A DNA stretch of 64,000 bases from contig JAGBOF010000012.1 of the NCBI GenBank assembly GCA_017633985.1, positions 34,662-98,661 on the forward strand. Direction: 5' to 3'. A program made the position numbers and the translations under genes. Under the pieces are notes generated by a model. It was given only the letters and a program-made list of their open reading frames with translations, had not been told where the DNA came from and did no database searches. The DNA is from Bacteroidales bacterium. Its GTDB lineage: Bacteria; Bacteroidota; Bacteroidia; Bacteroidales; P3. Shown piece by piece: positions 5,661 through 58,833 of this stretch; position 1 is the stretch's first letter, and every line of letters starts with the position of its first letter.

Positions 5661-5777
5661 AATCAGCGATATTAATAATTTTTTATCGCTGATCAGTAAA
5701 TTTTCGTCGCTGATTATTTTACTCAAACGGCGTTTTATTTTATTAAAACGCCGTCTTAATAATTGGGCATTGCGCCG
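5661..5777. repeat. 21-bp module array A, rlmD/thiH junction
   Basis: Module centres lie at about 5666, 5689, 5710, 5730 and 5751 (steps 23, 21, 20, 21). The first three modules are ATCAGCGAT/TCGCTGAT type; the last two are the palindromic AAACGGCGTTT and AAAACGCCGT type, which are mutual reverse complements and can pair. A drifted further module may lie near 5773. The array separates two same-strand genes. Confidence 0.8.
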
Positions 5778-5826
5778 CATATTAAAATTATCCCCGATAA
5801 TCCTTTAGAAATTGCATTAATTGTCG

Positions 5827-5834
5827 TAAATTTG
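5827..5834 (+). promoter_or_regulatory. -7 box upstream of thiH
   Basis: TAAATTTG matches TANNTTTG, 81 bases before the thiH start. No good -33 TTTG is present at the usual distance, so this is a tentative promoter. Confidence 0.45.
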
Positions 5835-5915
5835 CAAAACAAAAGCGATGTAACAATATTGCACTTTTGCTAAACTTCAAAAGATTATTTAAATACTAAA
5901 TACAGAATTAAGATT

Positions 5916-7025
5916 ATGGAATTCTACGATACTATAAAGGATTTGGTTTGGGAAGAAGTGACTGAAAGTGTTTATGGCAAGACGGACGCTGACGTGAGAA
6001 AGGCATTGGGAAAAGAGACATTGACTATAGAGGATTTCAAGGCGTTGATTTCGCCCGCTGCCGAGAAATATTTGGAACAGATGGCTGTAATGTCACGCCG
6101 TATAACGCAAAAACGCTTCGGCAAGGTTATGCAGTTTTACATACCGATGTACCTTTCCAACGAATGCAGCAACCATTGCATCTACTGCGGCTTCAACCAC
6201 AATAACGATATTGCCCGCAAAACGCTTAACGACGAAGAAATCCTTGAGGAAATAAAGGTGATTAAATCCATGGGATACGACAATGTTCTTTTGCTGACAG
6301 GAGAATTTCCGCGTTTGGTGGGTGCCGATTACATTGAACACGCCATAAAACTTTGCAGGGAGCATTTTTCTGCCATAAATTTGGAGGTTTATCCCATGAA
6401 AACGGAGGAATACAAACGTATGGCGGATGCAGGATGCAATTCAGTCTACATTTACCAAGAAACATTCAACGAAAAACGCTATAAAGTCTATCATCCCAAG
6501 GGCATGAAAAGCAATTACCGCTGGCGTTTGGGCACTCCCGAACGTATTGCACAGGCAGGAATGCACAGGGTTGGCATGGGAGCATTAATAGGACTGGAAG
6601 AATGGCGTACGGAAATGGTATATTTGGCTATGCACCTACGTTTTATGACAAAGAACTATTGGCAAACGAAATACTCCTTGTCATTCCCGCGTATGCGTCC
6701 CGCAGCGGGCGGCTACCAACCTAATTTCCTTATGAGTGAAAAGCAGTTTGCGCAGGCTTTGTGGGCGTTCCGTATATTTGACAACGACATTGAAATCAGT
6801 ATGTCCACAAGGGAAACGCGTAATATGAGAGATCATTTCATTACATTGGGCGTTACTTCCGTCAGTGCTGGCTCTCATACCGATCCGGGCGGATATGCTC
6901 ACCCTGATACCGAGTTGGAACAATTCCATATCAACGATGACAGAGATGTTAAGCAGATGGAAGAAATGGTAAGAAAGCAAGGTTACGACGTTATCTACAA
7001 AGACTGGGACCGCGGACTGAACTAA
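5916..7025 (+). CDS. thiH: 2-iminoacetate synthase ThiH (radical SAM)
   Basis: Radical SAM tyrosine lyase that makes 2-iminoacetate (dehydroglycine) for the thiazole ring of thiamine. The 369-residue protein has the cluster motif C84-x3-C88-x2-C91 (NECSNHCIYCGF), YPMKTEEYK, and GALIGLEEWRTE, and ends in IYKDWDRGLN as ThiH does. The extra C-terminal cysteines of the related HydG are absent. Its usual partners thiG, thiF, thiS and thiE are not in the window, so it stands alone here between two repeat arrays. Confidence 0.92.
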   Translation: MEFYDTIKDLVWEEVTESVYGKTDADVRKALGKETLTIEDFKALISPAAEKYLEQMAVMSRRITQKRFGKVMQFYIPMYLSNECSNHCIYCGFNHNNDIARKTLNDEEILEEIKVIKSMGYDNVLLLTGEFPRLVGADYIEHAIKLCREHFSAINLEVYPMKTEEYKRMADAGCNSVYIYQETFNEKRYKVYHPKGMKSNYRWRLGTPERIAQAGMHRVGMGALIGLEEWRTEMVYLAMHLRFMTKNYWQTKYSLSFPRMRPAAGGYQPNFLMSEKQFAQALWAFRIFDNDIEISMSTRETRNMRDHFITLGVTSVSAGSHTDPGGYAHPDTELEQFHINDDRDVKQMEEMVRKQGYDVIYKDWDRGLN

Positions 7026-7085
7026 AAACGCCGCAGAGGCTGTTTTCAGCGTTGTTTTCGGGTAAAACTTCCGCATTTTTGCGAT
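7026..7085. repeat. Weak 21-bp module array after thiH
   Basis: AAAACGCCGC, GCGTTGTTTT and CCGCATTTT cores fall at about 7031, 7052 and 7073, exactly 21 bp apart, but the modules have diverged from the consensus. Probably a decayed member of the array family. Confidence 0.45.
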
Positions 7086-7112
7086 TTAAAGAACTTTAAT
7101 ATTGTTAAAACA

Positions 7113-7718
7113 ATGAACAAAAGACGCAGTACAGTAATTTTAGTCGTTATCGGCGTGTTTTTACTTATTTCCGTATTCTGTTTAGTGCCTATAATCTTCG
7201 GCATATACGACAATATGTCACTTTGGCCTAATTTCTACGGAGCGTTGATGGGTGTTATCCTGACGGCAGTCACAACCGTTGTCCTGCTTTTGGGACAAAC
7301 TTCAAGCGAAGAAGAGAAAGAACGGAACACAAAGGTATTTGAAGAAAAAATAAACGTATATAAAGAGTTTTTGCAAATATTCTGCAAAATTATAGAGGAC
7401 GGAAAAATTGACAAAACAAACAAAATACAACTCCAATTCCAACTTTCTTACATTGCAATGCACACAAAAAGCGAGCATATCAAACAAATAAGCAGTCAGG
7501 TCAAGACTATCGTCCTTAAAATAACGGATGACAAGATTGAGAACTACATGCCGCAACTTTTTACAATCGTTCAGTCTTTCAGGGAAGAACTTTACGGCGA
7601 TAAATCCAAACTTTCGCAAAACGATATAAAGAATATTGACGCTGCTATCTCCAATTTCTCCGCTATAATGATGACCGAAAAAGAAAAAGCCGAATATTTG
7701 AGATGTCATAATTGCTGA
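7113..7718 (+). CDS. Hypothetical protein with two N-terminal membrane helices
   Basis: A 201-residue protein with two hydrophobic helices (about residues 9-31 and 41-61) separated by a short loop, then a charged, probably coiled segment EEEKERNTKVFEEKINVYKE and a helical cytosolic domain without catalytic motif. The YGALMGVILTAVTTVVLLLGQT second helix followed by an EKxxKVFEEKIxVYKEFL region resembles small Bacteroidota membrane proteins of unknown role. No operon partner is obvious; it ends 92 bases before the U32 gene. Confidence 0.7.
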   Translation: MNKRRSTVILVVIGVFLLISVFCLVPIIFGIYDNMSLWPNFYGALMGVILTAVTTVVLLLGQTSSEEEKERNTKVFEEKINVYKEFLQIFCKIIEDGKIDKTNKIQLQFQLSYIAMHTKSEHIKQISSQVKTIVLKITDDKIENYMPQLFTIVQSFREELYGDKSKLSQNDIKNIDAAISNFSAIMMTEKEKAEYLRCHNC

Positions 7719-7770
7719 TAAATTTTCACGTCTTTTGCTTGAATTATTACAAACGCATAAAAATAATGCG

Positions 7771-7778
7771 TAACTTTG
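7771..7778 (+). promoter_or_regulatory. -7 box upstream of the U32 peptidase gene
   Basis: TAACTTTG matches TANNTTTG, 32 bases before the start codon. The -33 element is weak. Confidence 0.5.
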
Positions 7779-7810
7779 CACTTTCAAATTTTAATACGTA
7801 AAATATAATA

Positions 7811-9067
7811 ATGAATATAGAGGATTTTGAAATTATGTCGCCCGTGGGGAGTTACGAATCCTTATCGGCGGCAATCCAAGCGGGTGCTGACAGCGTTTAT
7901 TTCGGAGTGGGCAGTCTTAATATGCGTTCCCACAGCGCTAACAACTTCAATCTTGACGATTTAAAGCAGATTTGTGAGATTGCAAAGACCAATAGCGTCA
8001 AAACTTACTTAACTGTCAATACCGTAATCTATGATGACGAAATTGAGTACATGCACTCTGTCGTTGATACGGCCAAACAGAGCGGTGTAAACGCAATAAT
8101 TGCCTCCGATATGGCGGTTATCTCCTACGCAAACGCAATCGGTATGGAAATTCACTTATCCACGCAATGTAACATCACCAATTACGAAGCGGTGAAGTAT
8201 TATTCTCAATTTGCGGACGTAATTGTTACCGCCAGGGAGTTGAGTTTGGACAAAGTAAAGGCCATCACCGAGCGCATAAAGGCCGAAAACCTGAAAGGAA
8301 AAGGCGGCAAACTGATGCGTATTGAGTGTTTTGTACACGGAGCACTGTGTATGGCGGTATCGGGAAAGTGTTATATTTCGCTCGATAACGCAAATATGAG
8401 TGCCAACCGCGGAGCCTGTTTGCAATTTTGCAGACGTCCTTACCGCGTAACGGACACTGACGGCGGTACGGAGTTAGTTGTTGACAACGAGTACATAATG
8501 TCGCCCAAGGATTTGAAGACTATTGATTTTTTGGACAAGATAATCGATGCCGGGGTGCGGGTTTTCAAAATTGAAGGGCGCGGACGTTCGCCTGAATACG
8601 TAAAAGTCGTTACCGAATGCTACAAAACCGCACTTAAAGCCTACATCGACGGCACTTGGAACGAAGAATTGAAAACGCAATTGAACGAAAAATTAAAAAA
8701 AGTCTACAACCGCGGATTTTGGGACGGCTATTATTTGGGCCGAAAAGTCGGTGAATGGAGCGAAAACTACGGTTCGCAAGCCACAACCACCAAGATTTTC
8801 GTCGGAACGGTGACAAATTATTTCAAAAATATAGGTGTAGCGGAGGTAAGAATGGAAACGGGGGATTTATCCTTAGGCGACGGGATTTACATCATAGGTC
8901 CGACGACGGGAGTTCAGGAAAACACAATCCGCGAGTTGCGTTTTGACTTAAAAAACGTGGAAAAAGCAGAAAAAGGACAGATGATTTCGCTTCCGACAGC
9001 GGATACCGTCCGCCGTAACGACAAAGTGTATAAAATAGTTCACAAAAAAGATGAAAATAAAGGCTAA
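7811..9067 (+). CDS. Peptidase U32 family protein (TrhP/RlhA-like)
   Basis: U32 proteins studied in bacteria take part in prephenate-dependent tRNA or rRNA hydroxylation rather than proteolysis. This 418-residue protein begins with the family's APVGSYES-like segment (MSPVGSYESLSAAIQAGADS), contains the cysteine set ECFVHGALCMAVSGKC and CLQFC, and the EGRGRSPEYV motif. The C-terminal 90 residues look like a small beta-barrel domain. It overlaps the next gene by 17 bases, so the two are translationally coupled. The exact RNA target is inferred only from the family. Confidence 0.88.
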   Translation: MNIEDFEIMSPVGSYESLSAAIQAGADSVYFGVGSLNMRSHSANNFNLDDLKQICEIAKTNSVKTYLTVNTVIYDDEIEYMHSVVDTAKQSGVNAIIASDMAVISYANAIGMEIHLSTQCNITNYEAVKYYSQFADVIVTARELSLDKVKAITERIKAENLKGKGGKLMRIECFVHGALCMAVSGKCYISLDNANMSANRGACLQFCRRPYRVTDTDGGTELVVDNEYIMSPKDLKTIDFLDKIIDAGVRVFKIEGRGRSPEYVKVVTECYKTALKAYIDGTWNEELKTQLNEKLKKVYNRGFWDGYYLGRKVGEWSENYGSQATTTKIFVGTVTNYFKNIGVAEVRMETGDLSLGDGIYIIGPTTGVQENTIRELRFDLKNVEKAEKGQMISLPTADTVRRNDKVYKIVHKKDENKG

Positions 9068-9932
9068 TTATCATTCGCATTCCACGTTCTGCGACGGCAA
9101 AAGCACAATGGAAGATATGGTTTTGTCCGCTGTAAATAACGGCTTTACGCATTGGGGATTTTCCGCTCACGCTCCCGTTTCTTATCCTAACACTTTCGCC
9201 TTAAAAAGTGAAGATTTCGATTCATATAAAGCCGAATACCTGCGGCTGAAAGACAAATACGGCAAACAAATCAAGCTTTACATCGGTTTGGAAATGGATT
9301 ACATTCCGCAACTTGCCGAAAACCTTAGGGAAAATGCAGAAAAGAATTACAAATTGGACTATTTCATCGGCAGCGTTCATCAAGTAAAAGAAAACAATCC
9401 GCAAATAAAAGTTACAAATGCCGATACTCAGACGTGGTTTATCGACGGCAGCAAAACGGAACCTTATGATGAGGGCTTGAAAACGCTGTTTGACGGCGAT
9501 ATAAAGCGGGCTGCGGGCTGTTATTTCACGCAGGAAATTGATATGATTAAGTTGTACCGTCCCGATGTGCTGGGTCATTGCGACAAAGTGGTAATGCACA
9601 ACAAAAACCGTTATTTCCGCATTGACGAACAGTGGTATAAAGATTTAGTTTACGGCCTTTTCGATGCAGTAATTGAGGCCTCAATTATCGTAGAAGTGAA
9701 CACACGCGGCATTTACCGCAAACGATATGAAGATTTCTACCCTTCAACGCCGTTTTTGAAGTATTTGATTGAGAAAAACGTCCCCTTAGTCGTTTCAACC
9801 GACTGCCACAAGGCCGAAGAAACCGATGCACTTTACAAAGATGCCGTTTTGATGTTAAAATCCTTAGGTTGCAAGGAACTGATGTACTTTGAAGATTCGT
9901 GGAAAGCCGAAAAAATCGATTGCTTTATATAG
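9051..9932 (+). CDS. PHP-domain phosphatase, histidinol-phosphatase type
   Basis: PHP-fold metal-dependent phosphoesterase of 293 residues. Metal ligands are visible as H8 and H10 (YHSHSTFCDG), the GLEMDYIP glutamate, the GSVHQ histidine, GHCDKV and the C-terminal STDCHK. This set matches HisK-type histidinol-phosphatase, which removes phosphate from L-histidinol phosphate. No other his genes are nearby, so the substrate is an inference. The start lies inside the U32 gene (17-base overlap). Confidence 0.82.
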   Translation: MKIKANYHSHSTFCDGKSTMEDMVLSAVNNGFTHWGFSAHAPVSYPNTFALKSEDFDSYKAEYLRLKDKYGKQIKLYIGLEMDYIPQLAENLRENAEKNYKLDYFIGSVHQVKENNPQIKVTNADTQTWFIDGSKTEPYDEGLKTLFDGDIKRAAGCYFTQEIDMIKLYRPDVLGHCDKVVMHNKNRYFRIDEQWYKDLVYGLFDAVIEASIIVEVNTRGIYRKRYEDFYPSTPFLKYLIEKNVPLVVSTDCHKAEETDALYKDAVLMLKSLGCKELMYFEDSWKAEKIDCFI

Positions 9933-9980
9933 ATGAAGGATGTTTTTGACGGTTTGAATGTCAAATAACAAAGCGTCGGT

Positions 9981-10066
9981 AAAATAACCAGGCAAATAAA
10001 AAAATTAAAGTGCGACAGAAATTTTTTTTCGTCGCACTTTAATTTTTTAAAACGCCTGATTATTTT
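9981..10066. repeat. Module array B with nested stems, convergent junction
   Basis: An 18-bp perfect stem (9999-10016 with 10031-10048, core AAAGTGCGAC/GTCGCACTTT) is nested in a 13-bp near-perfect stem (9981-9993 with 10054-10066). Core centres at about 9992, 10013, 10035 and 10055 keep the 21-bp step. Flanking A and T runs on both sides make it a plausible two-way terminator for the PHP gene and the biotin-carrier gene. Confidence 0.8.
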
Positions 10067-10341
10067 TATTCGGCAGCGTCAGGAATAATGTTAATCAAGA
10101 CATCGTTTTTAGAAACAGCCTGTCCCTTTTTGACATTTATCTTTTCTATCTTGCCGTCAACATTTGCGCAGATGTTATTGTCCATCTTCATGGCGTGCAA
10201 TGATAAAAGAGCGTCACCTTTTTTGACTTTCTGACCTTTCTTTACGAATATCTCCATTATATTTCCGGGTATAAAGGCATAAACTTCGCCCGCAGAAACC
10301 TGAACATATAATTGTCTGTAATGTTTTCTTTCTTCTGACAT
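10066..10341 (-). CDS. Biotin carboxyl carrier subunit
   Basis: Biotinyl domain protein of 91 residues; the biotin lysine is K52 in LHAMKMD. The flanking repeats GNIMEIFVKKGQKVKKGD and GKIEKINVKKGQAVSKND form the two half-barrels of the domain. It carries CO2 between the active sites of a biotin-dependent acyl-CoA carboxylase or decarboxylase. It lies 22 bases downstream of the carboxyltransferase gene, so they are one transcript. No Pro/Ala-rich linker or membrane anchor is present. Confidence 0.9.
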   Translation of the reverse strand: MSEERKHYRQLYVQVSAGEVYAFIPGNIMEIFVKKGQKVKKGDALLSLHAMKMDNNICANVDGKIEKINVKKGQAVSKNDVLINIIPDAAE

Positions 10342-10363
10342 AATTTTGTCCTCCTTTTATTTT

Positions 10364-11911
10364 TTAGAATGGCGGAAGTCCGTGTTTTTTAAACGGAGTT
10401 TCTTGCTGTTTATTCTGTGTCATTTTCAATGCATGCTCAATATATTTGCGTGTATCTTCCGGTCGGATAACCGAATCCACATATCCGTAAGATGCAGCAA
10501 CATATGGGTTGGCGAATTTCTCACGGTATTCGTCTATCTTCTCTTTACGCATTTTTTCAGGGTTGTCTGACTCTTTTATTTCCTTACGGAAAATAATGTT
10601 TGCAGCACCTTCAGGTCCCATAACTGCAATTTCAGCCGTCGGCCATGCAAATACGAAGTCTGCTTTCAAGTGCGAAGAACACATTGCTATGTATCCGCCG
10701 CCGTAAGCCTTGCGCAAAATAACCGTAATCTTCGGAACAGTGGCTTCAGAGTAAGCGTAAAGAATTTTTGCGCCGTGACGGATAACTCCTGCATGCTCTT
10801 GATCGATACCAGGTAAGTATCCCGGCAAATCAACCAAGGTAACAAGCGGAATATTAAACGCATCGCAGAAACGGATAAACCTTGCAGCTTTGTCAGATGA
10901 GTTGCAATCCAAAACACCTGCCATTGCACCAGGATTATTGGCAACAAAACCGACCGTTTCTCCGTCAATACGTCCGAAACCTATGGTTATATTAGGAGCA
11001 AACAGTTCCTGAATTTCCAGAAATTCGCTTCCGTCGGTCAAACCTTTGATAATATTTCTTACATCGTATGGCTGGGCAGGATCGGATGGGAAGATACCGT
11101 TTATTTTGTAGTCCTTACTGTTAGGTTTCTTACTTTCGAATCTGTCGGCTTTCTTTGTATTGTTCCAAGGTATGTAAGTAAACAAATCTTGTATCTGTTT
11201 GAAACATTCCTGTTCGCTTTCGGCAAAGAAATGTGCGTTACCGCTGACTTCTGCGTGCACTCTGGCTCCGCCCAAATCCTCTTTACTGATTTCTTCTCCC
11301 AATACGGTTTTGATAACGTCGGGACCGGTGATAAACATATTGGATATCTTGTCCACAACAAAGACAAAGTCCGTCAAAGCAGGGGAATAAACGGCACCGC
11401 CTGCGCACGGACCCAATATAACACTGATTTGAGGAATCACACCTGATGCCATAGTGTTGCGGTAAAAGATTTCGCCGTAACCTGCCAACGCATTAACGCC
11501 TTCCTGTATACGCGCACCGCCCGAATCATTGATACCGATGATAGGAGTACGCATTGCCATGGCGTGATCCATTATCTTGCAGATTTTTTTTGCGTGCATG
11601 TAACCCAAAGATCCGCCGCTTACCGTAAAATCTTGTGCATATATACAAACAGGATGTCCTTTTATCGTTCCCGTACCTGTTACAACTCCGTCGGCAGGCA
11701 GGATTTTTTTATCCATATCAAAATCCCGTCCCGAGTGTTGTATAAATAAATCATATTCGTGGAAAGAATCCTTATCCAAAAGAGACAATATACGCTCTCT
11801 TGCCGTAAGTTTGCCCGATGCTTTCTGCTTTTCAACGGCTTTTTCGCCGCCTCCCTGCAATGCTACCTGCATTCTTTCCTTCAATTCCTTTGTTTTACTG
11901 TTTATTGACAT
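10364..11911 (-). CDS. mmdA: Acyl-CoA carboxyltransferase subunit (methylmalonyl-CoA type)
   Basis: Carboxyltransferase of 515 residues that moves a carboxyl group between biotin and propionyl/methylmalonyl-CoA. Typical segments are GKLTARERI, the acyl-CoA site SGGARIQEGVNALAGYGEIFY, GPCAGGAVYSPALTDF, the biotin-site stretch LVTLVDLPGYLPGIDQEHAGVI and AYGGGYIAM. In Bacteroidota it belongs to the succinate-propionate route or to propionyl-CoA carboxylase. Neither a membrane decarboxylase beta subunit nor biotin carboxylase is adjacent, so the direction of the reaction is open. Confidence 0.9.
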   Translation of the reverse strand: MSINSKTKELKERMQVALQGGGEKAVEKQKASGKLTARERILSLLDKDSFHEYDLFIQHSGRDFDMDKKILPADGVVTGTGTIKGHPVCIYAQDFTVSGGSLGYMHAKKICKIMDHAMAMRTPIIGINDSGGARIQEGVNALAGYGEIFYRNTMASGVIPQISVILGPCAGGAVYSPALTDFVFVVDKISNMFITGPDVIKTVLGEEISKEDLGGARVHAEVSGNAHFFAESEQECFKQIQDLFTYIPWNNTKKADRFESKKPNSKDYKINGIFPSDPAQPYDVRNIIKGLTDGSEFLEIQELFAPNITIGFGRIDGETVGFVANNPGAMAGVLDCNSSDKAARFIRFCDAFNIPLVTLVDLPGYLPGIDQEHAGVIRHGAKILYAYSEATVPKITVILRKAYGGGYIAMCSSHLKADFVFAWPTAEIAVMGPEGAANIIFRKEIKESDNPEKMRKEKIDEYREKFANPYVAASYGYVDSVIRPEDTRKYIEHALKMTQNKQQETPFKKHGLPPF

Positions 11912-12013
11912 AATTCTTAAAATTTAAATCAACAAATTTTTAATTAGAATTGCGAAATTAATACATTTTATCCGAATAAAACTCCGTTTTGTCCAAAAAT
12001 ATACAAACTTTCA

Positions 12014-12048
12014 TGTGTTAAAGCCTGAATCAATTACGCTTTAACACA
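12014..12048 (-). terminator. Hairpin after the ABC exporter gene
   Basis: TGTGTTAAAGC (12014-12024) and GCTTTAACACA (12038-12048) form a perfect 11-bp stem between the ABC exporter and mmdA. On the reverse strand a T-rich stretch follows after a few bases. The rest of the 180-base gap shows no other structure. Confidence 0.6.
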
Positions 12049-12090
12049 CTTTAAACAAAACTAAAAATACTGAATATCACGCTGTAAGTT

Positions 12091-13923
12091 TCAGCCTACT
12101 TGCTGCATTTGATAGAGATTGTAATATATGCCGCCTTGGCGGTATAATTCCTCATGGGTTCCCTGTTCTTTTATCTCTCCGTTATCCAAAACTATAATTT
12201 TGTCGGCATTTACAACCGTACTTAAGCGGTGTGCAATTATTATTGTAGTACGGTTTTTGGATATATTGTCCAATGCAGCCTGCACTTTGCGCTCACTTTC
12301 CGTATCAAGTGCCGATGTAGCCTCATCCAATATAAGTATAGGGGAATTTTTCAGCACCGCCCTTGCAATGGATATTCTCTGCTTTTGTCCGCCGCTTAAC
12401 ATATCGCCTTTATCTCCTATATTGGTCTGGAATTTCTGCGGAAGCATCTCTATAAACTCCGTAGCATTGGCAGTAAGTGCTGCATTTTCTATTTCCTGCT
12501 GCGTATAATTACCTCCGAATGCAATGTTGGAAGCAACCGTATCGTTAAACAAAACAGTTTCTTGGGTTACCACCGATATATTCTTGCGTATATCCTCCCC
12601 TTTCAATTCATTTACCGAAATATCATCAAACAATATATCACCCTGACCGGCTTTTAACTGCCAAAACTTCTCAATTAAATCAGTCATTGTCGTTTTGCCG
12701 CTTCCCGAAGAGCCAACTATTGCCGTCGTTTTGCCTTTTTCAAATGTAAAATTAATGTTCTTCAGAACTTCATGCCCTTCAGTATAATTAAAATTAACGT
12801 TTTTAAACGTTATTCCGCTTTTTAAATCTTCAGGGAAAGGCTTTGGGTTCAATGGTTCTTCGATAATATTTTTGCTGTCTGTTATTTCCATTATACGGTT
12901 CATAGAAGCCGTACCGCGTTTGAAGTTATAATATGCCGTAGATGCGTCTTTGGCAGGTTTGATTATCAATATAAACAATATCAAATAGACAATAAACATC
13001 GTACTGCTCAAAGAAGACGACATAAAAACCTTATAAGACCCGAAAGCCAGCAAAACGGCTATCACGATGGATGAAAAAAATTCACTTTGGGGCGGAGCCA
13101 AATCAACACGTCTGTAAACACGGTTACGTATTTGCGTAAGCTTTTCATTAAAAGCATGGAAACGTTTGTTAACAAACGATGCTGCACCGAGCGATTTGAT
13201 TATTTTCTGTCCGTCTATGCTCTCCTCTATTGCGGAAATAAGAACCGCATTTTGGTCTTGCAATTCTTTGGAACTGCGGCGCAATTTCCTTGAAAGAAGC
13301 GATGTCAAAAAAGCAACCAAAGGGAATAACACCAAAGCGGCAACCGTAAGCAATGCGTCAATATACAACAACATTGCAAAATACAGCAATACCACAACAA
13401 CCGAATTGATCATCATCTGCACGGACTTAAGAACCGTTTCGTCAAATTCTATTATGTCCGAAGAAAAACGCGAAAGTAAATCGCCTTTCTTATATTTGCT
13501 TATAAAAACTATGTCCTGCAAAGAGAACTTTTTGAATATTGCCGAACGGATGTCACGTATGATATAATTGCGGGTGCGTCCTATCTGATATTGGCTCAAC
13601 CATGTAAAAACGTCTTTGAGAAAATATATTCCCAATATAATTAAGGTAAAGTAGATAAGGGCTTTTGTTTTACCGAATCCTAAAAACCATCCGTAAACCG
13701 TGTTCAACAAATTGTCAAGTTCCGATGATGACGATGCGGCAGCACCTGACGGAGTGAACAGAATTTGTAAAAAATTATTCAATGACAAAATGGAGCAAAT
13801 AGAAAACACACTCATCAAAACGACAAGTAAAAAATACAAAACATATTGCGATTTGTATCTGCCCGTAAACCGTGTTATAAAGTCCTTTTCTCCCTTTGTC
13901 ATTACCGTGTTATTTGCTTGCAA
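12091..13923 (-). CDS. ABC exporter, fused permease and ATPase (MsbA-like)
   Basis: Half-transporter of 610 residues. The N-terminal half has six membrane helices; the C-terminal half has Walker A GSSGSGKTT near residue 405, the signature LSGGQKQRISIARA, Walker B ILILDEATSALD and the switch histidine in IIIAHRLSTV. Such proteins work as homodimers that flip lipids or drugs; in this family lipid A flipping is the commonest proposal. It lies between an array (13926-14010) and a hairpin, so it seems to be a single-gene unit. Confidence 0.88.
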   Translation of the reverse strand: MQANNTVMTKGEKDFITRFTGRYKSQYVLYFLLVVLMSVFSICSILSLNNFLQILFTPSGAAASSSSELDNLLNTVYGWFLGFGKTKALIYFTLIILGIYFLKDVFTWLSQYQIGRTRNYIIRDIRSAIFKKFSLQDIVFISKYKKGDLLSRFSSDIIEFDETVLKSVQMMINSVVVVLLYFAMLLYIDALLTVAALVLFPLVAFLTSLLSRKLRRSSKELQDQNAVLISAIEESIDGQKIIKSLGAASFVNKRFHAFNEKLTQIRNRVYRRVDLAPPQSEFFSSIVIAVLLAFGSYKVFMSSSLSSTMFIVYLILFILIIKPAKDASTAYYNFKRGTASMNRIMEITDSKNIIEEPLNPKPFPEDLKSGITFKNVNFNYTEGHEVLKNINFTFEKGKTTAIVGSSGSGKTTMTDLIEKFWQLKAGQGDILFDDISVNELKGEDIRKNISVVTQETVLFNDTVASNIAFGGNYTQQEIENAALTANATEFIEMLPQKFQTNIGDKGDMLSGGQKQRISIARAVLKNSPILILDEATSALDTESERKVQAALDNISKNRTTIIIAHRLSTVVNADKIIVLDNGEIKEQGTHEELYRQGGIYYNLYQMQQVG

Positions 13924-13925
13924 AA

Positions 13926-14010
13926 ATAAAACGCTGTTTTATTTTATTAATCAGGCGTTTTAATTTACTGAAACGCCGTTTTAATTTCTTAAAACGCCTT
14001 CTTTTTTAAC
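13926..14010. repeat. 21-bp module array C, purB/ABC exporter junction
   Basis: Four modules with centres at 13934, 13955, 13976 and 13997, every step exactly 21 bp. Each has the AAAACGCCGTTTTAATTT type sequence with changes in one arm. It starts right after the purB stop and ends at the ABC exporter start, both genes reading leftward. Confidence 0.85.
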
Positions 14011-15360
14011 TTATTCATTATCAGGATATATTCCTATGTAATTTTGCGGGGTTATTTTACGCATTCTTTCCTTTATTTCTTCGCTTACATTCAACGTCTT
14101 GATAAACTCCTGAATGGAATCTTTGGTTATACGGGCGTTGGTGCGGGTTAAGGCTTTTAACGTCTCGTATGCGTTAGGGTAATCAATGCTCCGCAGTATT
14201 GTCTGCAATGCTTCTGCCACTACAGCCCAATTATTTTTCAAATCTTCATTGACCTTTTCTTCGTTAAGTATCAATTTGCCGATACCTTTCTTTATTGAAG
14301 CCAAAGCAATCAATATATGGGCGATAGGAACGCCTATGTTACGGCTAACGGTTGAGTCCGTAAGGTCGCGTTGCATACGGGAAATAGGCAGTTTCATCGA
14401 AAGATGTGTCAAAACAGCGTTTGCCATACCGAGATTTCCCTCCGCATTTTCGAAATCAATAGGATTGACCTTATGAGGCATTGCCGAAGATCCGACTTCA
14501 CCCTCTTTAATTTTTTGTTTGAAGTATTCCATTGAGATGTACATCCAAATATCGCGGCAAAAATCTATCAAAATGGTGTTAATACGCCTTAAATTGTCAA
14601 AATACGCCGCCATATTGTCGTAATTCTCTATTTGGGTCGTATAAAGTGAACGTTCAAGACCTAAAGACGCCACAAACTCATCGCCGAATTTAATCCAATC
14701 ATATTGAGGAAACGCAATATTGTGGGCATTGTAGTTTCCCGTTGCTCCGCCGAACTTTGCGTTAAAAGGAATCATTGCAAAATATGCCAATTGCTGCTCC
14801 AAACGGTATGCAAATACTTTAAACTCTTTGCCTAAAGATGTCGGAGATGCTGGTTGTCCGTGAGTATGTGCAAGCATAGGCACGTCCTTCCACTGACGGG
14901 CGTTTTCATTTATCAAATCTATAATCTCATTTAATTGAGGCAGCAATACGTTGTCATTACAATCCTTTATACTCAAAGGAACCGATGTATTATTCACATC
15001 CTGTGACGTTAAACCGAAATGAATATACTCCTTATGTGCAGAAAGTCCCATTTCGTCAAACCGCTGTTTGATAAAATATTCGACAGCCTTTACATCATGG
15101 TTGGTAATCTTCTCTATATCCTTTATTTTTTGAGCATCATCCAAAGAAAAATTGCGGTAAATATCCCTTAATTTCTCAAAATTGTCATGATTAAAGTCTT
15201 TCAAAGCCTCAAGCGGAATATTGCAAAGAGCAATGAAGTATTCAATCTCTACTTTTACCCTGTAATTTATCAAAGCCCGTTCGGAAAAATAATTTTCCAA
15301 TACCTCAACCTTATTTCTGTACCTTCCGTCAATAGGAGATATTGCACTTAAAACATCCAT
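14011..15360 (-). CDS. purB: Adenylosuccinate lyase
   Basis: Purine synthesis enzyme (449 residues) that releases fumarate from SAICAR and from adenylosuccinate. The fumarase/aspartase superfamily signature GSSAMPHKVNPIDFEN is present near residue 290, with LAHTHGQPASPT and HFGLTSQDVNNT giving the catalytic histidine and substrate-binding residues. The N-terminus SAISPIDGRYRNKV is typical of the E. coli-type long form. Arrays lie on both sides, so it is probably its own transcription unit. Confidence 0.96.
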   Translation of the reverse strand: MDVLSAISPIDGRYRNKVEVLENYFSERALINYRVKVEIEYFIALCNIPLEALKDFNHDNFEKLRDIYRNFSLDDAQKIKDIEKITNHDVKAVEYFIKQRFDEMGLSAHKEYIHFGLTSQDVNNTSVPLSIKDCNDNVLLPQLNEIIDLINENARQWKDVPMLAHTHGQPASPTSLGKEFKVFAYRLEQQLAYFAMIPFNAKFGGATGNYNAHNIAFPQYDWIKFGDEFVASLGLERSLYTTQIENYDNMAAYFDNLRRINTILIDFCRDIWMYISMEYFKQKIKEGEVGSSAMPHKVNPIDFENAEGNLGMANAVLTHLSMKLPISRMQRDLTDSTVSRNIGVPIAHILIALASIKKGIGKLILNEEKVNEDLKNNWAVVAEALQTILRSIDYPNAYETLKALTRTNARITKDSIQEFIKTLNVSEEIKERMRKITPQNYIGIYPDNE

Positions 15361-15421
15361 ATTGCTTATAATTTTATTAATCTGTTTACTTATAATTTTT
15401 TATCCGTCATCACACAAAATT

Positions 15422-15480
15422 AAAACGCTGTCTTATCTGAACGGAACGCTGTTTTATTCCACTAAAACGCCGTTTTAATT
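15422..15480. repeat. 21-bp module array D, before purB
   Basis: Three modules with centres 15428, 15449 and 15470, steps of exactly 21 bp, of the AAAACGCTGTCTTA and AAAACGCCGTTTTAATT types. It lies after the CpsB-like gene and before purB, both reading leftward. Confidence 0.82.
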
Positions 15481-15499
15481 CCTTTATTATGACTTATTG

Positions 15500-16231
15500 T
15501 TAAAACATACTGTTCATCAATCTGTCCGATTCCGTCAATTTGTATAAATATTTATTGGTTTTAGCCTTTGCAATTCCGTCCAAATGTTTTTGATGGTGCA
15601 AATCCGAACCTGCAATATCTATATAATCTTGCTTTATCAACCATTCGGCGAATTTTTGCGTAGGTTTGTCGTAAAAACCTATCAAAGAAAGTATATTTAA
15701 CTGAAACAAAATATTGGAATCGTGCAGATACTTTATCATATCTGGCTGTTCCCTCAAATACAAATACCTTTCGGGATGGGCAAGTATGAGATTGTAACCC
15801 GCAGACTGCAATTCAAATACCGTATCCTTTATTCCCATAGGCAGAGATGTGAAAGGAAACTCTATAAGAAGATATTTGTTCCGCCCGAAATGCTTCAGTT
15901 CACCTCTTTTGAAATGCCCATAAAAACCTTCGTCTATTGTGTGCTCGGCGCCTACCTCCAACTCCATAGGAATATTCACTTGCTCCAATGCATAACGCAC
16001 ATCCTGCAATCTGTTTTCGAATTCTCCCGTATCATTATCAAAAGAGCCGAACCTAACATGCGGAGTTATGATCATTTTTCTGTATCCTAACTCATACATT
16101 CCTTTGATTAAATGGACCGATTCCCTCATTCCGTCAGCTCCGTCATCGATTCCGGGCAACATGTGCGAATGTATATCCGTTTTCAAAAACGAAAAATCAA
16201 CTTCCTTCTTATTTCCGAATAACCATCCCAT
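15500..16231 (-). CDS. CpsB/YwqE-type tyrosine-protein phosphatase (PHP family)
   Basis: PHP-fold metalloenzyme of 243 residues. The motif DIHSHMLPGIDDGA (H21, H23) gives the first metal ligands; ITPHVRFG, AHPERY and GSDLHH provide the rest. In capsule loci this family dephosphorylates the tyrosine kinase that controls polysaccharide export. No kinase or capsule gene is close by, so its target is unknown here. It lies 9 bases downstream of rpe and is probably co-transcribed with it. Confidence 0.87.
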   Translation of the reverse strand: MGWLFGNKKEVDFSFLKTDIHSHMLPGIDDGADGMRESVHLIKGMYELGYRKMIITPHVRFGSFDNDTGEFENRLQDVRYALEQVNIPMELEVGAEHTIDEGFYGHFKRGELKHFGRNKYLLIEFPFTSLPMGIKDTVFELQSAGYNLILAHPERYLYLREQPDMIKYLHDSNILFQLNILSLIGFYDKPTQKFAEWLIKQDYIDIAGSDLHHQKHLDGIAKAKTNKYLYKLTESDRLMNSMF

Positions 16232-16240
16232 TTTTCATCA

Positions 16241-16885
16241 TCATTTTTTTAATTCATGTATTGTTTCCTTAGGATTTGGTGAAGAAAATACCGCACTTCC
16301 AGCTACCAAAACATCAGCTCCTGCTTGGTAAAGCAAATGCGAATTCTCTGTATTGACTCCTCCGTCTATTTCGATAAGGGTTTGAAGACCTCTTTCATCA
16401 ATCATTTGCTTCAAAAGGCGTATTTTACCGTACGTATTTTCTATAAACTTCTGTCCTCCGAACCCCGGATTGACTGACATAAGCAAAACCATATCGCAAA
16501 GAGGCAATATATCCTGCAAAAGTATCACCGGAGTATGCGGATTGAGCGCAACGGCGGGACGCATTCCTAAATCCTTTATTGCCGACAGACTTCTGTGCAA
16601 ATGCCTGCATGCTTCATAATGCACGCTCAATATATCCGCTCCGCATTTTTTGAAATCCTCAAAATATCTGTCGGGATCCTCTATCATAAGATGCACGTCA
16701 AGAGGCTGCAATGCGTGTTTTTTGATATGCTTTATTACAGGCTGTCCGAAAGATATGTTAGGAACGAATTTTCCGTCCATAACATCAACGTGAACCCAAT
16801 CGTTTTCACTTTGATTAAGCATCTCTATCTCCTGTTGCAACTTTCCGAAATCGGCACTTAACAAAGAAGCCGCTACCATTCCCAT
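16241..16885 (-). CDS. rpe: Ribulose-phosphate 3-epimerase
   Basis: TIM-barrel enzyme of 214 residues that interconverts ribulose-5-phosphate and xylulose-5-phosphate in the pentose phosphate pathway. Hallmarks are AASLLSADFGKL at the start, VHVDVMDGKFVPNISFG with metal-binding His and Asp, DVHLMIEDP, VLLMSVNPGFGGQ and the EIDGGVN phosphate-binding end. A second ATG two codons in is equally possible. A -7-like CAAAGATA (16939-16946, reverse strand) lies upstream. Confidence 0.95.
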   Translation of the reverse strand: MGMVAASLLSADFGKLQQEIEMLNQSENDWVHVDVMDGKFVPNISFGQPVIKHIKKHALQPLDVHLMIEDPDRYFEDFKKCGADILSVHYEACRHLHRSLSAIKDLGMRPAVALNPHTPVILLQDILPLCDMVLLMSVNPGFGGQKFIENTYGKIRLLKQMIDERGLQTLIEIDGGVNTENSHLLYQAGADVLVAGSAVFSSPNPKETIHELKK

Positions 16886-17149
16886 AATTTTATATTATAA
16901 ATGTTTATAATCAACAATACTTCGTACATTCGAATTTGCAAAGATACAAAAAATTATCATATTACTGATATCCGATGCAGATTTATTTAATTATAAAACA
17001 ACCGCTGCAGCATATAACCATACATATATATTATATAAAGGTATCTTTCAGTTTTAAAACGCAACTGAACATGCAAATGAAAAAAGAATGCACAAAAAAT
17101 AATTAGTTTATTTTTACGTTTATTGTCCTGAATAAATAAAGAGACAATT

Positions 17150-18052
17150 ATGTGGCTAAAAAAGCATAAAAGTTTACTGATGCCCGTATCTATGTTAATA
17201 GGTATTGTCGGTTACAAGCTGCTTGCCGGGCTGATGTTTATAGTTCCTTTTACCGTAGCAGTGATGTTTTTTCTGGCGTATTGCTCGGTGGATTTCCGAA
17301 GATTGAGTTTTACAAAAACAAACATCGCAATGCTTATCCTGCACATAGTGTTTATCTTTGTTTTCTACGGTTTTGCCAAACTGTTATTCTCCGATACGGT
17401 ATCCAAAGGTGTTTTGATGTGTGCAATATGCCCCGCCGCGGCATCGTCTTCGGCAATCATCATAATGCTTGGCGGAAACAAGGAAGTAGGCATCACACAT
17501 ATTATTCTGGATAATGTCTTGATTTCATTTTTAGCGCCATTGATTCTGTCGGCTGTGGAACCGCAGGCAGATTTTTCTTATATTATGTCGGTTATAGATA
17601 TTCTGAAAAAAATATTCCCGCTTTTGATTCTCCCGATACTGGTAACTGCGCTATTAAAACGTTTAAAACCCAAATGGACCGTTGCGATTGCCGAATACAA
17701 CTGGCTGTCTTTGCTGTTTTGGTCGGTGTCTTTGGCAATTATTTTCTCACGTACCACCGATATGATAGTAAATGCGTCCGCCCAAGACATGAAAGATATA
17801 ATTATAATGTCGTCTATTTCTTTGGTTGTGTGCATTCTGCAGTTCGGATTGGGAAAATATATAGGCAAAAAGCTGCATAATTCCGTTGCCGTCACACAAG
17901 GTTTGGCACAGAAGAACACTTCTTTGGGTATTTGGCTTGCCCACGCATACCTTGCCAATCCTTTGAGCATCATATTCTCGGCTGCGTATTCTTTATACCA
18001 AAATCTGATAAATTCATGGCAGGTTTACCGTCACGATAAGAAGAATAATTAG
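17150..18052 (+). CDS. Bile acid:sodium symporter (BASS) family transporter
   Basis: Integral membrane protein of 300 residues with about nine to ten hydrophobic helices. The segment MCAICPAAASSSAIIIMLGGN fits the first crossover motif of the family, and AVTQGLAQKNTSLGIWLAHAYL fits the second, with the Gln/Asn residues that bind sodium and substrate. The substrate is unknown; bacterial members carry bile acids, pantoate and other organic anions. It diverges from rpe and runs toward the DUF1294 gene, with array E between. Confidence 0.82.
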   Translation: MWLKKHKSLLMPVSMLIGIVGYKLLAGLMFIVPFTVAVMFFLAYCSVDFRRLSFTKTNIAMLILHIVFIFVFYGFAKLLFSDTVSKGVLMCAICPAAASSSAIIIMLGGNKEVGITHIILDNVLISFLAPLILSAVEPQADFSYIMSVIDILKKIFPLLILPILVTALLKRLKPKWTVAIAEYNWLSLLFWSVSLAIIFSRTTDMIVNASAQDMKDIIIMSSISLVVCILQFGLGKYIGKKLHNSVAVTQGLAQKNTSLGIWLAHAYLANPLSIIFSAAYSLYQNLINSWQVYRHDKKNN

Positions 18053-18097
18053 ACCTTTGTAAGCTATTTATTTTCACCTATCTGCATTTACCGAAAA

Positions 18098-18180
18098 TAA
18101 AACGCCGTTTCAATAAATTTTTATCGCTGATTAATAAATTTTTATCGCTGATTAATTTCGTAAAACGCCGTAATATTTTT
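18098..18180. repeat. 21-bp module array E, convergent junction
   Basis: Four modules with centres 18105, 18127, 18148 and 18168. The two middle modules are identical 21-bp tandem copies (18112-18132 and 18133-18153) of the TTTATCGCTGATTAATAAAT type; the outer two are AAAACGCCG type. It lies between the ends of the BASS transporter and DUF1294 genes. Confidence 0.88.
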
Positions 18181-50861: not shown

Positions 50862-50947
50862 ATATGACGGCGTTAAAAAAAATTAATACGGCGTTTGAGT
50901 GAAATAAAACGTTGTTTTAATTTACTCAAACGCCGTATTAATTTTAG
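50862..50947. repeat. 21-bp module array L with a 22-bp perfect stem
   Basis: Centres at 50870, 50891, 50912 and 50933, every step exactly 21 bp. Positions 50879-50900 and 50924-50945 are perfect 22-bp reverse complements (ACTCAAACGCCGTATTAA core). The loop holds its own palindrome AAAACGTTGTTTT. It lies between the glycogen gene and sbcD, both rightward. Confidence 0.9.
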
Positions 50948-55102: not shown

Positions 55103-55175
55103 CAATTTACCCGCATAAAAAGGCAAAATAAAGCGGCAAAATATCTGATTAAAAATCACGCTGTTACAAAAGGCA

Positions 55176-55262
55176 AAAATAAAACGCCGTTTCAGTAAAT
55201 TTTTAAGGCGTTTTATTTTATTAATCACGCAGAATAATTTCTTAAAACGCCGTCTTATTTTT
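55176..55262. repeat. 21-bp module array M, sbcC/bamD junction
   Basis: Four modules with centres 55187, 55208, 55229 and 55250, exactly 21 bp apart. AAAATAAAACGCC (55176-55188) and GGCGTTTTATTTT (55207-55219) form a perfect 13-bp stem. The stretch before it (55110-55175) contains looser GGCAAAATA-type repeats; no gene was seen in the 260-base gap. Confidence 0.86.
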
Positions 55263-55300
55263 ACAAAGAATTTTATCGGAAATAAAATAACTTGCATTGT

Positions 55301-55334
55301 TTTTGCGTTAAATGATAAAAATTCACTAAATTTG
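55301..55334 (+). promoter_or_regulatory. Promoter of the bamD unit
   Basis: TTTTG (55301-55305), a 21-base spacer and TAAATTTG (55327-55334) lie 31 bases before the GTG start of bamD. Confidence 0.65.
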
Positions 55335-55365
55335 CAAAAATTTTACGGATAAAGATTTTAAGATT

Positions 55366-56600: not shown

Positions 56601-56626
56601 GACGCTTTATAAAACTTAAATGTGTA

Positions 56627-57835
56627 ATGGCATCTGTATTGAGCGGCAAAAACGTTTTAATAGGTATCAGCGGAGGAATAGCTGCATACAAAGCACCTTT
56701 TCTTATAAGACTGCTTGTAAAAAAAGGCTGCAATGTAAAGGTTACCGCTACTGATAATGCCTTAAAATTCGTAACCCCGCTGACCCTGCAGACATTAAGC
56801 GGCAATACGGTGTATAACCGTATGTTTGATTTGCCTTCACAGATGACTACCGAGCACATTACACTAGCACAATGGGCTGATTGTTTTGTTATCGCCCCTG
56901 CTACTGCTGATATCATAGGCAAATATGCCTCCGGCATTGCCGATGATGCCCTTTCTACGGTGCTGTTGGCCTTTGAAAAGGATGTTTTCGTTTGTCCTGC
57001 GATGAACTCGGCGATGTATTTCAACAAATCAGTGCAGCGTAATCTGACACTGTTGCAACAAGACGGAGTTCACATCATTGACAGCGATGAAGGATTTTTG
57101 GCATGTGGCACAACAGGCAAAGGACGTATGGCAGAACCTGAAGAAATTGTAGAAAAGTTAGAACAGTTCTACGGATGTAATAATGATTTAAACGACAAAA
57201 CCGTCACAGTCACTGCGGGACCTACACGGGAAAGCATAGACAGCGTACGGTTTATATCAAACAATTCGTCAGGTAAGATGGGATTGGCTTTAGCATACAG
57301 TTTCATTAGATGCGGAGCCAAAGTAAACCTTGTTGCAGGCCCTTTATCCGAAAAAATCACGCCTTTAAAAGGTCTGAACGTTATCAATACGGTATCGGCA
57401 GAAGATATGTACAAAGCAACCGTTGATGTCTTTGACACATCTGACATCACAGTTTGCGCAGCTGCCGTTGCCGATTACACTCCTAAAGAAAAACACACGG
57501 GCAAACTAAAGAAAAAAGAAGACAATTTGCTTTTGAATCTTGTGCCTACCAAAGATATTTTGGCGGAATTGGGCAAAAGAAAGAAACCTTCGCAGATTCT
57601 TGTCGGTTTTGCACTTGAAACGGATAACGAATTGGAGAATGCGAAACTTAAACTTCTCAAAAAAAATCTGGACATGATACTTCTGAATTCTTTAAAGGAT
57701 GAAGGAGCGGGTTTTGAAGTGGACACAAACAAAGTTACGGCTGTAAAAAAATCCGGGGAAATCATTTCCATGCCTTTAAAAAGCAAAAGGGAAGTTGCCG
57801 ATGATATTGTTAATTTGATTAAAGAGTTTTTATAA
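56627..57835 (+). CDS. coaBC: Bifunctional phosphopantothenate-cysteine ligase/decarboxylase
   Basis: Two steps of coenzyme A synthesis in one 402-residue chain. The N-terminal CoaC flavoprotein part (1-185) has GISGGIAAYKAP, the active-site region around EHITLAQWADCFVIAPATADIIGK and PAMNSAMY; the CoaB part (about 190-402) has VTAGPTRESIDSVRFISNNSSGKMG and AAAVADYTP. It lies 26 bases after rpoZ and 6 bases before the porD-like gene. Confidence 0.96.
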   Translation: MASVLSGKNVLIGISGGIAAYKAPFLIRLLVKKGCNVKVTATDNALKFVTPLTLQTLSGNTVYNRMFDLPSQMTTEHITLAQWADCFVIAPATADIIGKYASGIADDALSTVLLAFEKDVFVCPAMNSAMYFNKSVQRNLTLLQQDGVHIIDSDEGFLACGTTGKGRMAEPEEIVEKLEQFYGCNNDLNDKTVTVTAGPTRESIDSVRFISNNSSGKMGLALAYSFIRCGAKVNLVAGPLSEKITPLKGLNVINTVSAEDMYKATVDVFDTSDITVCAAAVADYTPKEKHTGKLKKKEDNLLLNLVPTKDILAELGKRKKPSQILVGFALETDNELENAKLKLLKKNLDMILLNSLKDEGAGFEVDTNKVTAVKKSGEIISMPLKSKREVADDIVNLIKEFL

Positions 57836-57841
57836 TCCGCC

Positions 57842-58753
57842 ATGAAGAAGTTAGTTTTGTTTATTCTGTTGACTGCCTGCACTAATTGGATTGTTACGGC
57901 ACAGGAATTCAAGATTCAAGTGAGCGTAAGTGCCGCCCAAATACAGGGATCTGATAAAGAAATATACAATACTATACAAAACACTCTTAACGGATTTGTT
58001 AATGACAGGCAATGGACCAATTACCACTACGAAGACATTGAGAAAATAGAAGGAAGTATCTCAATAAATGTCAAAGAACGCCCGACCCAGGAAGATTTCA
58101 AGGGTGAAATTTACATCCAATTACGGCGTCCTGTTTACGGTTCTACATATACGACAACTATGTTGAATACGCAGGAAAAAGACTTCCAGTTTAAATTCAT
58201 TGAAGGGCAAAATATTGAATTTGATGAGAACAATTATACCTCTAATCTGTTGTCTACAATTGCTTTCTATTTAAATTATTTTCTTGCATTGGACGGAGAC
58301 AGTTTTGCAATGAACGGCGGGGACAAGTATTTCCAGATTTGCCAAAATATAGTTACCGCTGCCCAACGCAGTCCCAATGAAGGATGGAAACGTGCCGAGA
58401 AAAACATTAACAAATATTGGATGATAGAAAATTATACCAATACTACGTACAGTGCAATGCATGACGTGTGGTATAAGTATCACCGTTTGGGACTGGATAT
58501 GCTTTCATCGGAAAACCAAACGGAAGCCAGAAACAGCATATATCTTGCATTAAAGGATTTAAAAGAAGTTAACGACGAACGCAGCGGCTTGATATGCGTA
58601 ACACAATTCATAGAAGCCAAAGCGGATGAGATTGTAAATATTTTCAAAACCGCTCCCGCTAACGAACAAAACGATGTAATCACTATAATGAAACAAATAA
58701 ATCCTGCGCAAGCTAACAAATATGAACAGATCAGCCAAACTGCCGCAAGGTAG
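57842..58753 (+). CDS. porD: DUF4835 protein, PorD of type IX secretion
   Basis: A 303-residue exported protein with a signal peptide (about 1-20, ending VTAQ). The body fits DUF4835: GFVNDRQWTNYHYEDIEKIEGSISINV, IYIQLRRPVYGSTYTTTMLN, FDENNYTSNLLSTIAFYLN and ARNSIYLALKDLKEVN. The Porphyromonas gingivalis member is PorD, needed for type IX secretion and gliding-type surface export. It ends the bamD unit; recN, the common next gene, is absent. Confidence 0.85.
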   Translation: MKKLVLFILLTACTNWIVTAQEFKIQVSVSAAQIQGSDKEIYNTIQNTLNGFVNDRQWTNYHYEDIEKIEGSISINVKERPTQEDFKGEIYIQLRRPVYGSTYTTTMLNTQEKDFQFKFIEGQNIEFDENNYTSNLLSTIAFYLNYFLALDGDSFAMNGGDKYFQICQNIVTAAQRSPNEGWKRAEKNINKYWMIENYTNTTYSAMHDVWYKYHRLGLDMLSSENQTEARNSIYLALKDLKEVNDERSGLICVTQFIEAKADEIVNIFKTAPANEQNDVITIMKQINPAQANKYEQISQTAAR

Positions 58754-58770
58754 TGCAAAGTAACGGGAAT

Positions 58771-58833
58771 AAAACGGCGTTTTAATAAAATAAAACAGCG
58801 TTTTAATTTTTTTTAAAGGCTTTTTAATTTAAC
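58771..58833. repeat. 21-bp module array N, porD/aminotransferase junction
   Basis: Three modules with centres 58777, 58798 and 58819, exactly 21 bp apart. The first is the perfect AAAACGGCGTTTT palindrome; the third has lost one arm. Both flanking genes read rightward. Confidence 0.84.

Follow-up and report, generated by a model that had tools for sequence, protein, structure and literature searches.

Plasmid iterons, which are direct repeats about two helical turns apart with one protein bound on one face of the DNA, and the repetitive extragenic palindromic (REP) and bacterial interspersed mosaic elements (BIMEs), which occur within operons, are among the described systems closest to the arrays reported here. 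These arrays consist of A+T-rich modules with a G+C core, repeated at about 21 bp, and lie in intergenic DNA of a 64,000-nucleotide stretch (the window; G000:C11:34662-98661, contig JAGBOF010000012.1) of a Bacteroidales genome (assembly GCA_017633985.1, here G000). Unlike plasmid iterons, they are genome-wide and intergenic, are not at an origin, and are built from many unit types. A further system, BrickBuilt, comes from Porphyromonas gingivalis, a member of the same order of bacteria as G000. BrickBuilt, a tandem repeat of 23 nt, lies in intergenic DNA as part of a miniature inverted-repeat transposable element (MITE); it has one unit in one species and 19 copies in ATCC 33277 (PMC4596501).

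BrickBuilt resembles our arrays in being intergenic and dispersed and in having head-to-tail units of about two helical turns. Its inverted ends recall the inverted arms of one class found here (B-type); the other main class (A-type) has no fixed ends by eye. Our arrays differ in having a period of 21 to 22 bp, several unrelated units per genome that mostly differ across the family, hundreds of sites, and dyad cores; the strings "palindrom" and "helical" are absent from the BrickBuilt main text. Because a period of 23 bp was found in 0 of 78 G000 arrays, we do not file the arrays under BrickBuilt. The precedent nevertheless makes the claim of an initial sequence-only reading of the window, that no Bacteroidota element of this kind had been described, too strong.

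REP units are hairpins of 20 to 40 bp with a GTAG or CGTC tag, often accompanied by a Y1 transposase (PMC3733652). Our arrays share with REPs and BIMEs the high copy number of extragenic palindromes and their clustering in mixed orientation. They differ in the 21-bp phase, in the 0 matches to PF01797 in G000 and 13 other genomes of the genus, on which a REP system with its associated tyrosine transposase (RAYT) was rejected, and in the consensus of 90 A-type units, the one class inspected, in which neither tag was visible by eye. The 10- to 11-bp A-tract periodicity of bacteria likewise involves helically phased A/T runs, but it is spread along chromosomes (PMC3431218), whereas our arrays are discrete, have G+C cores, and show a fundamental of 21 bp. 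A paper on triplex repeats concerns a different motif (PMC4666352). The open-access literature yielded no 21-bp palindromic intergenic tandem repeat of Bacteroidetes and no nucleoid-associated tandem repeats defined by helical turns.

A common phase and several unit classes

The G000 genome comprises 2.39 Mb in 36 contigs and is 97.5% complete. Our main sample of 464 kb combined the window with 400 kb (20 stretches from contigs C6, C9, and C35) and contained 251 intergenic gaps, defined from a crude longest-open reading frame (ORF) gene map in which gene starts are especially error-prone. Modules were located in the sample with a strict regular expression and with a looser finder, both set against shuffled sequence. 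Tandem arrays were called with Tandem Repeats Finder (TRF; score ≥45), and cores were counted genome-wide as matches to AAAACGCCGTTTTA with ≤1 mismatch on both strands.

The strict expression found 150 modules in the 251 gaps, compared to about 18 per shuffle. Steps of ≤30 bp between these modules were 20 bp (12), 21 bp (29), 22 bp (17), 23 bp (1), and 27 bp (1), so that 58 of 60 fell in the range of 20 to 22 bp, versus none in five shuffles. With the looser finder (350 modules versus 164.5 per shuffle), 89 of 109 steps of ≤30 bp were in this range, versus 1.3 of 10.9 per shuffle. The range held 25 of 25 steps between neighbors at least 70% alike, 35 of 39 at 50 to 70% identity, and 29 of 45 below 50%. 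GC autocorrelation of the intergenic gaps peaked at 21, 42, 63, 84, and 105 bp. Non-overlapping intergenic TRF arrays of period 15 to 30 bp had a period of 21 or 22 bp in 77 of 78 cases (58 at 21, 19 at 22, and 1 at 17); counting overlaps, there were 106 intergenic rows, 61 of period 21 and 24 of period 22. Of the TRF rows within called ORFs, 22 of 46 also had a period of 21 to 22 bp; at least part of these rows fall in ORFs that are spurious (e.g., 61902-62180).

The sequence-only reading had named 15 array loci in the window, plus a weaker one, and had described them as part of a genome-wide, two-turn-phased family. At all 15 loci we found at least three cores about 21 bp apart, in 14 by script and at 25264 with the help of a core identified by eye; the weaker locus, at 7026, does not hold up as an array, with steps of 7 to 19 bp plus one of 43.5 bp. 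Genome-wide distribution is borne out by the many copies in the 464-kb sample and by the 457 sites matching AAAACGCCGTTTTA, versus 14 for the reversed control. Step lengths elsewhere in the genome are centered on 20 to 22 bp, as that reading required, and the centering near 21 bp agrees with its view that the cores would face one side of the DNA. Whether every step in seven arrays is exactly 21 bp, as it stated, depends on how the center is set: the 25 steps between neighbors at least 70% alike are all exactly 21 bp, and steps of 20 and 22 bp occur between dyad centers. The 20- and 22-bp steps sit at changes of module type and cancel (sums of 41 to 43 bp; consecutive steps anticorrelated, rho −0.56, n = 38). 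At least in part, this cancelling comes from a fixed offset between one type of module and another, and we dropped it as independent evidence.

What did not stand is the single family. The arrays comprise several unrelated unit classes with a common period, of which the CGC/CGG modules are one. The A-type occurs in variants AAAACGCCGTTTTA, ATCGCTGAT, ATCACGCAGAT, and ATCAGCCTGAT. B-type elements, 21 of which were found by pattern, have three A7-NNN-T7 modules at 22 bp and outward arms of 21-bp units ending in GGC; three modules were counted by eye where the pattern gave two, and at least one further copy (in stretch L033) escaped the pattern. Other units include TATAAAAACATCTTACGATGC (by eye), GTAATACGTAATATGTAGTAT, and AAAAATAACATGCGGTAAGGC. 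Among the 21 B-type elements, the triplets within A7-NNN-T7 are mostly CTG, CAG, CCC, GGG, or CTA; ACCCT/AGGGT often makes up one of the two linkers and GACTC/GAGTC the other.

Symmetry, folding, and curvature of the units

A-type units share the 15-bp dyad consensus T-N4-C-NNN-G-N4-A. Among 90 units with a 3-bp center, T occupies position −7 in 79 and A position +7 in 75, where the finder requires mostly A or T but leaves the choice between them free. In 75 unique units from a finder without a dyad term, positions ±3 were complementary in 93% of cases versus 59% expected (z 7.0), and ±6 also exceeded expectation (z 4.0). No pairing above expectation was seen in these units at ±5, ±8, or ±10 (z −0.8, −4.7, and −2.8), which led us to reject a continuous stem inside A-type modules; the negative value at ±4 is a finder artifact (one mismatch is allowed there) and was not used. 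A protein site with dyad symmetry accounts for this pattern better than an unbroken stem does. G000 A-type arrays are dyad-symmetric sites in fixed helical phase. Palindrome scores compared to unit-column permutations gave z values of 1.41 in G000, 2.68 in G013, 1.11 in G007, 1.23 in G016, 1.21 in G081, and 1.09 in G082.

We also compared the likeness of units within and between arrays, using A-type units with a 3-bp center from G000 (62 within-array pairs, 89 units). At ±5 to ±10 it was 0.543 within and 0.542 between arrays (P = 0.48). Restriction to the 34 exact-pattern units gave 0.587 and 0.575 (P = 0.39), and positions ±4 to ±10 gave 0.561 and 0.556 (P = 0.41), although the finder itself constrains ±4. 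Sharing an array does not make A-type units more alike, so local duplication alone does not explain the phase. A-type units instead resemble draws from a genome-wide consensus, as would be expected if a trans-acting factor read them.

RNA folding was more stable than in shuffles, with z values of −3.07 in G000, −6.33 in G013, −2.70 in G081, −3.48 in G007, and −3.86 in G034, compared to −1.54 for other G000 intergenic DNA. In one array of G013, a genome of the same genus as G000, four 22-bp units form an inverted repeat that runs for 42 bp without interruption (L098:7630-7714), and several G013 arrays have outer inverted ends in common, like TTGTTTTCAG/CTGAAAACAA (by eye). In the B-type, the arms of one element match each other no better than they match the arms of other elements (P = 0.16, 0.56, and 0.73; 19 of 21 elements usable), and we rejected a long RNA or cruciform stem for this class on the lack of covariation.

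An alternative hypothesis is that intrinsic curvature is the function of the arrays: each module offers an A-run and a T-run about 10.5 bp apart, whose bends would add. A wedge model with provisional parameters predicted 82 degrees versus 43 for shuffles over 61 G000 arrays and about a doubling in G013, G081, and G082 as well. A-tract phasing was raised in G016 and G022 too, and curvature exceeded that of unit-column-permuted arrays of the same period in G000 and G013 (mean rank 0.73 and 0.85). However, the rise is unclear in G007 (wedge z 0.47; A-tract z −0.65, or −0.91 with column permutation) and in G034 (wedge z 0.53; A-tract z −0.05, or 0.24 with column permutation), both of which have the period, and we rejected curvature as a family-wide property for this reason. 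A conserved G+C core present in hundreds of copies would also be superfluous for curvature. We consider it an improbable explanation of the arrays.

Relatives, array turnover, and candidate explanations

Stretches of 21 genomes of the same family, sampled unevenly (12 to 464 kb per genome; stretch L092 excluded as a duplicate of L223), held 198 arrays of period 15 to 30 bp, of which 181 had a period of 20 to 22 bp, 77 of these supplied by G000. In five genomes from other families, the count was 2 of 8. At least one array of period 20 to 22 bp was present in 16 of the 20 relatives; none was found in G004, G011, G017, or G018, from which little DNA was read (12 to 40 kb each), and G015 was weak (2 of 4). 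The units of relatives, some of them given in a shifted frame of the TRF unit, include AAAACAAAGTTTTAGAATTCT (G007), AAAAAACATATGTATTTTTAAA (G013), CATTTTTCCTAAGAGAAAATC (G016), and AAAGGCTGTTTCATTTTTACC (G034). They are not unique to species: the sisters G001 and G005 have the same units, and similar units occur in G006 and G022. The A-type core has a patchy distribution, with 457 sites in G000, 296 in G004, 195 in G022, 130 in G024, 97 in G034, and 90 in G006; the other 75 of 81 genomes have at most 38, a few of them above the control (e.g., 22 versus 1 in G010). The period is therefore common to most sampled relatives, mostly with unlike units. As the conserved quantity is spacing and not sequence, the usual homology searches miss such arrays.

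Individual arrays come and go. The array at 37526 lies behind ligA, and in 11 of 29 relatives the same next gene (by eye) follows ligA closely with no array between; some of the remaining relatives have another gene 3' of ligA. The array at 58771 splits a porD/aminotransferase gene pair that is directly adjacent in six of seven relatives (L142 to L147), uncultured Bacteroidales or Bacteroidota assemblies found with PorD. In the gap matching 55103-55365, stretches L143 and L144, which belong to the sister species G081 and G082, have an array in the same place behind a separate hairpin-plus-T terminator; the cores have changed, and the lengths are almost the same (289 and 288 bp).

These placements bear on the hypothesis that the arrays act as transcription terminators or form RNA hairpins at 3' ends. 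Each of the 15 arrays listed in the window follows closely on a stop codon (by eye), and arrays fold more stably than shuffles (in G000, z −3.07, compared to −1.54 for other intergenic DNA). In the wider sample, however, arrays occupy 36 of 167 tandem, 9 of 43 convergent, and 8 of 41 divergent gaps (P = 0.42 for gaps of ≥80 bp), and with no significant bias toward gene ends the pattern seen in the window does not generalize. In positions 1 to 20000 of the window, 13 terminator-like sites were counted, versus 17.3 in shuffles, and 1 of the 13 lay inside a listed array. Together with the separate terminators in L143 and L144 and the splitting of gene pairs that are closely spaced in relatives, the gap sample speaks against this explanation, which we rejected and hold to be very improbable.

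Sister species allow length changes to be followed gap by gap. Of the 74 gaps of G082, 49 were paired with G081, and two more were excluded for partner gaps of 2548 and 5280 bp. Differences in length were ≤3 bp in 41 of the 49 pairs and 20, 22, 22, 42, 43, 63, 83, and 1112 bp in the rest; none of the seven differences of 20 to 83 bp departs from a multiple of 21 by more than 1 bp, while that of 1112 bp is uninformative here. One difference is the gain of a 22-nt unit. Excluding the 1112-bp case, 12 of 48 gaps have arrays in both species, 2 in G082 only, 0 in G081 only, and 34 in neither; identity is 810 of 895 positions inside arrays and 8320 of 8859 outside. In G082:C23:23921-24098 (L213), compared to G081:C158, the loop between inverted modules is apparently inverted, as template switching at a quasi-palindrome would give.

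The strongest rival to a protein-based explanation is that the arrays are nonautonomous MITE or minisatellite elements like BrickBuilt, that is, selfish DNA with a 21- to 22-bp tandem core, inverted ends, and no host function, spread by a putative transposase or by template switching. The B-type is a dispersed family with inverted arms, whose copies number at least 21 in the 464-kb sample (pairs up to 91% identical over 115 bp), and some A-type arrays at different loci are 90 to 97% alike over 57 to 65 bp. BrickBuilt itself is a precedent (PMC4596501). The arrays interrupt gene pairs that are adjacent in relatives lacking them, form hairpins (the 42-bp stem in G013 among them), and have changed between the sister species by a unit gain and an apparent loop inversion that fit hairpin-directed template switching. 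Such elements leave unexplained why unrelated units in many species measure 21 to 22 bp and why unlike neighbors are in phase. A-type arrays have no fixed ends or internal order by eye, their units are no more alike within than between arrays, and B-type arms do not match preferentially within an element. A search for mobility on plasmids or phages with one B element (plasmids) and one A array (phages) gave zero matches. We regard this hypothesis as somewhat unlikely; it and a protein-based one can both hold if a protein came to use a mobile repeat as its site.

We postulate that the arrays are docking sites for a predicted dimeric, nucleoid-type DNA-binding protein aligned on one face of the DNA, a reading to which we give a probability of roughly 0.45. 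A constant period with free sequence, unlike units in phase, and consensus-like A-type units are most simply explained by a symmetric reader acting in trans and counting turns of the helix. The predicted protein would bind the sites as a dimer, cooperatively along one face, and its specificity would drift between species along with the sites. As a result, the DNA could be compacted locally, bridged, or divided between genes by a topological boundary. New arrays may arise through copying or template switching from other arrays and may be homogenized by template switching between inverted units; we propose template switching because of the hairpin tendency and because arm changes appear to occur in one event.

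Several observations weigh against docking arrays. Three of the seven phased length differences between the sister species lie in gaps without a TRF array, and slippage between repeats can insert or delete whole units with no selection involved. Conservation of the loci does not extend over longer times, and no individual array therefore seems essential. The covariation at ±3 and ±6 can also stem from two kinds of symmetric site mixed together, so that coupled change is not proven, and palindromicity is weak in G022 (z 0.19) and G034 (z 0.72). The comparison of units within and between arrays covers A-type units with a 3-bp center in G000, and near-identical neighbors in some arrays (18112-18156, 100%) indicate that local duplication happens too. 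Finally, folding was more stable than in shuffles in five of five genomes, which a purely double-stranded site does not need.

We further speculate, as a broader and unlikely extension of the docking hypothesis, that an entire Bacteroidales family uses a helical ruler in its intergenic DNA: a chromosomal protein system that evolves fast, with a site sequence particular to each species but a two-turn spacing that is kept. If so, the arrays would be a bacterial counterpart of centromere satellites, in which sequence turns over under constant geometry around a constant protein. Should a protein read the arrays, they would offer hundreds of natural sites in several genomes, with relatives whose sites have changed, for studying the coevolution of nucleoid proteins and their sites, and a chance to learn the in vivo effect of helical phasing. 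If the arrays instead reflect a repeat-generating mechanism, that mechanism measures two helical turns regardless of sequence, which plain slippage does not explain.

Arrays and neighboring features of the window

The A-type arrays of the window, like the other arrays below, are listed with no strand assigned. Steps are looser in the first two (18.5 to 23 bp). The array at 5661 to 5760 has five cores of the ATC.GC.GAT type followed by AACGGCGTT/AACGCCGTC, centered from 5666.5 to 5752 with steps of 22.5, 18.5, 23, and 21.5 bp. The array at 9981 to 10080 (cores at 9990.5, 10013, 10032.5, and 10055.5) is one nested inverted repeat in the predicted fold, GTGCGAC/GTCGCAC within CAGGC/GCCTG. Four cores lie at 13926 to 14003 (13934, 13955, 13976.5, and 13997; TRF period 21), and three at 15422 to 15480 (15428, 15449, and 15470.5). 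At 18098 to 18180, AACGCCGTT forms the outer and ATCGCTGAT the inner modules (four cores, at 18105.5, 18127, 18148, and 18168.5), and at 20751 to 20855 the outer modules of five (20760.5, 20783, 20804, 20824.5, and 20846) are inverted.

The script found four cores at 23094 to 23170. The weaker array at 25264 to 25322 has script cores at 25291.5 and 25313.5 and a third, A+T-richer core, AACAACGTTT, centered at 25271.5 by eye. Four cores, of the ATCTGCGTGAT type and AACGGCGTA, make up the array at 31331 to 31410. Between ligA and the next gene, the array at 37526 to 37620 has five (37528.5, 37549, 37570, 37591, and 37611.5). Five cores lie at 42345 to 42442, and the core script gave three at 44936 to 44990, four at 55176 to 55258, and three at 58771 to 58833, between porD and the aminotransferase gene. 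At 50862 to 50945 there are four cores, one of them weak: AACGTTGTT, at 50912, fills a 42-bp step.

Two B-type elements flank this series. The one at 1940 to 2110 has three A7-NNN-T7 modules at 22 bp in its center (1993-2053); its inverted arms, built of 21-bp units (GCCACGGGGC, followed by AAGGC/GGGC cores), point outward. The other, at 61830 to 62063 (center at 61904-61964), extends on the right in a long arm whose 21-bp units resemble AAAAATAACATGCGGTAAGGC (61988-62063). Two 21-bp arrays of other units were called by TRF within 2206 to 2387 (2206-2272 and 2333-2387). By eye, no phased array is present in the gap at 60171-60432, which contains two hairpins of the ordinary kind, one of them ending in a T-rich tail, so ordinary terminators exist beside the arrays.

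In an Rfam scan of the window, no array matched, and the one hit to reach the cut-off (gathering score) was a Bacteroidales small signal recognition particle (SRP) RNA (RF04183; 28814-28922), which marks the genome as one of the Bacteroidales. Elsewhere in the sample, a separate dispersed intergenic repeat occurs at L035:3429-3844, L035:15830-16543, L045:17896-18408, and L046:387-767. Its copies are 72 to 86% identical over 133 to 381 bp and are apparently unrelated to the arrays; it may be an RNA or the remnant of a mobile element.

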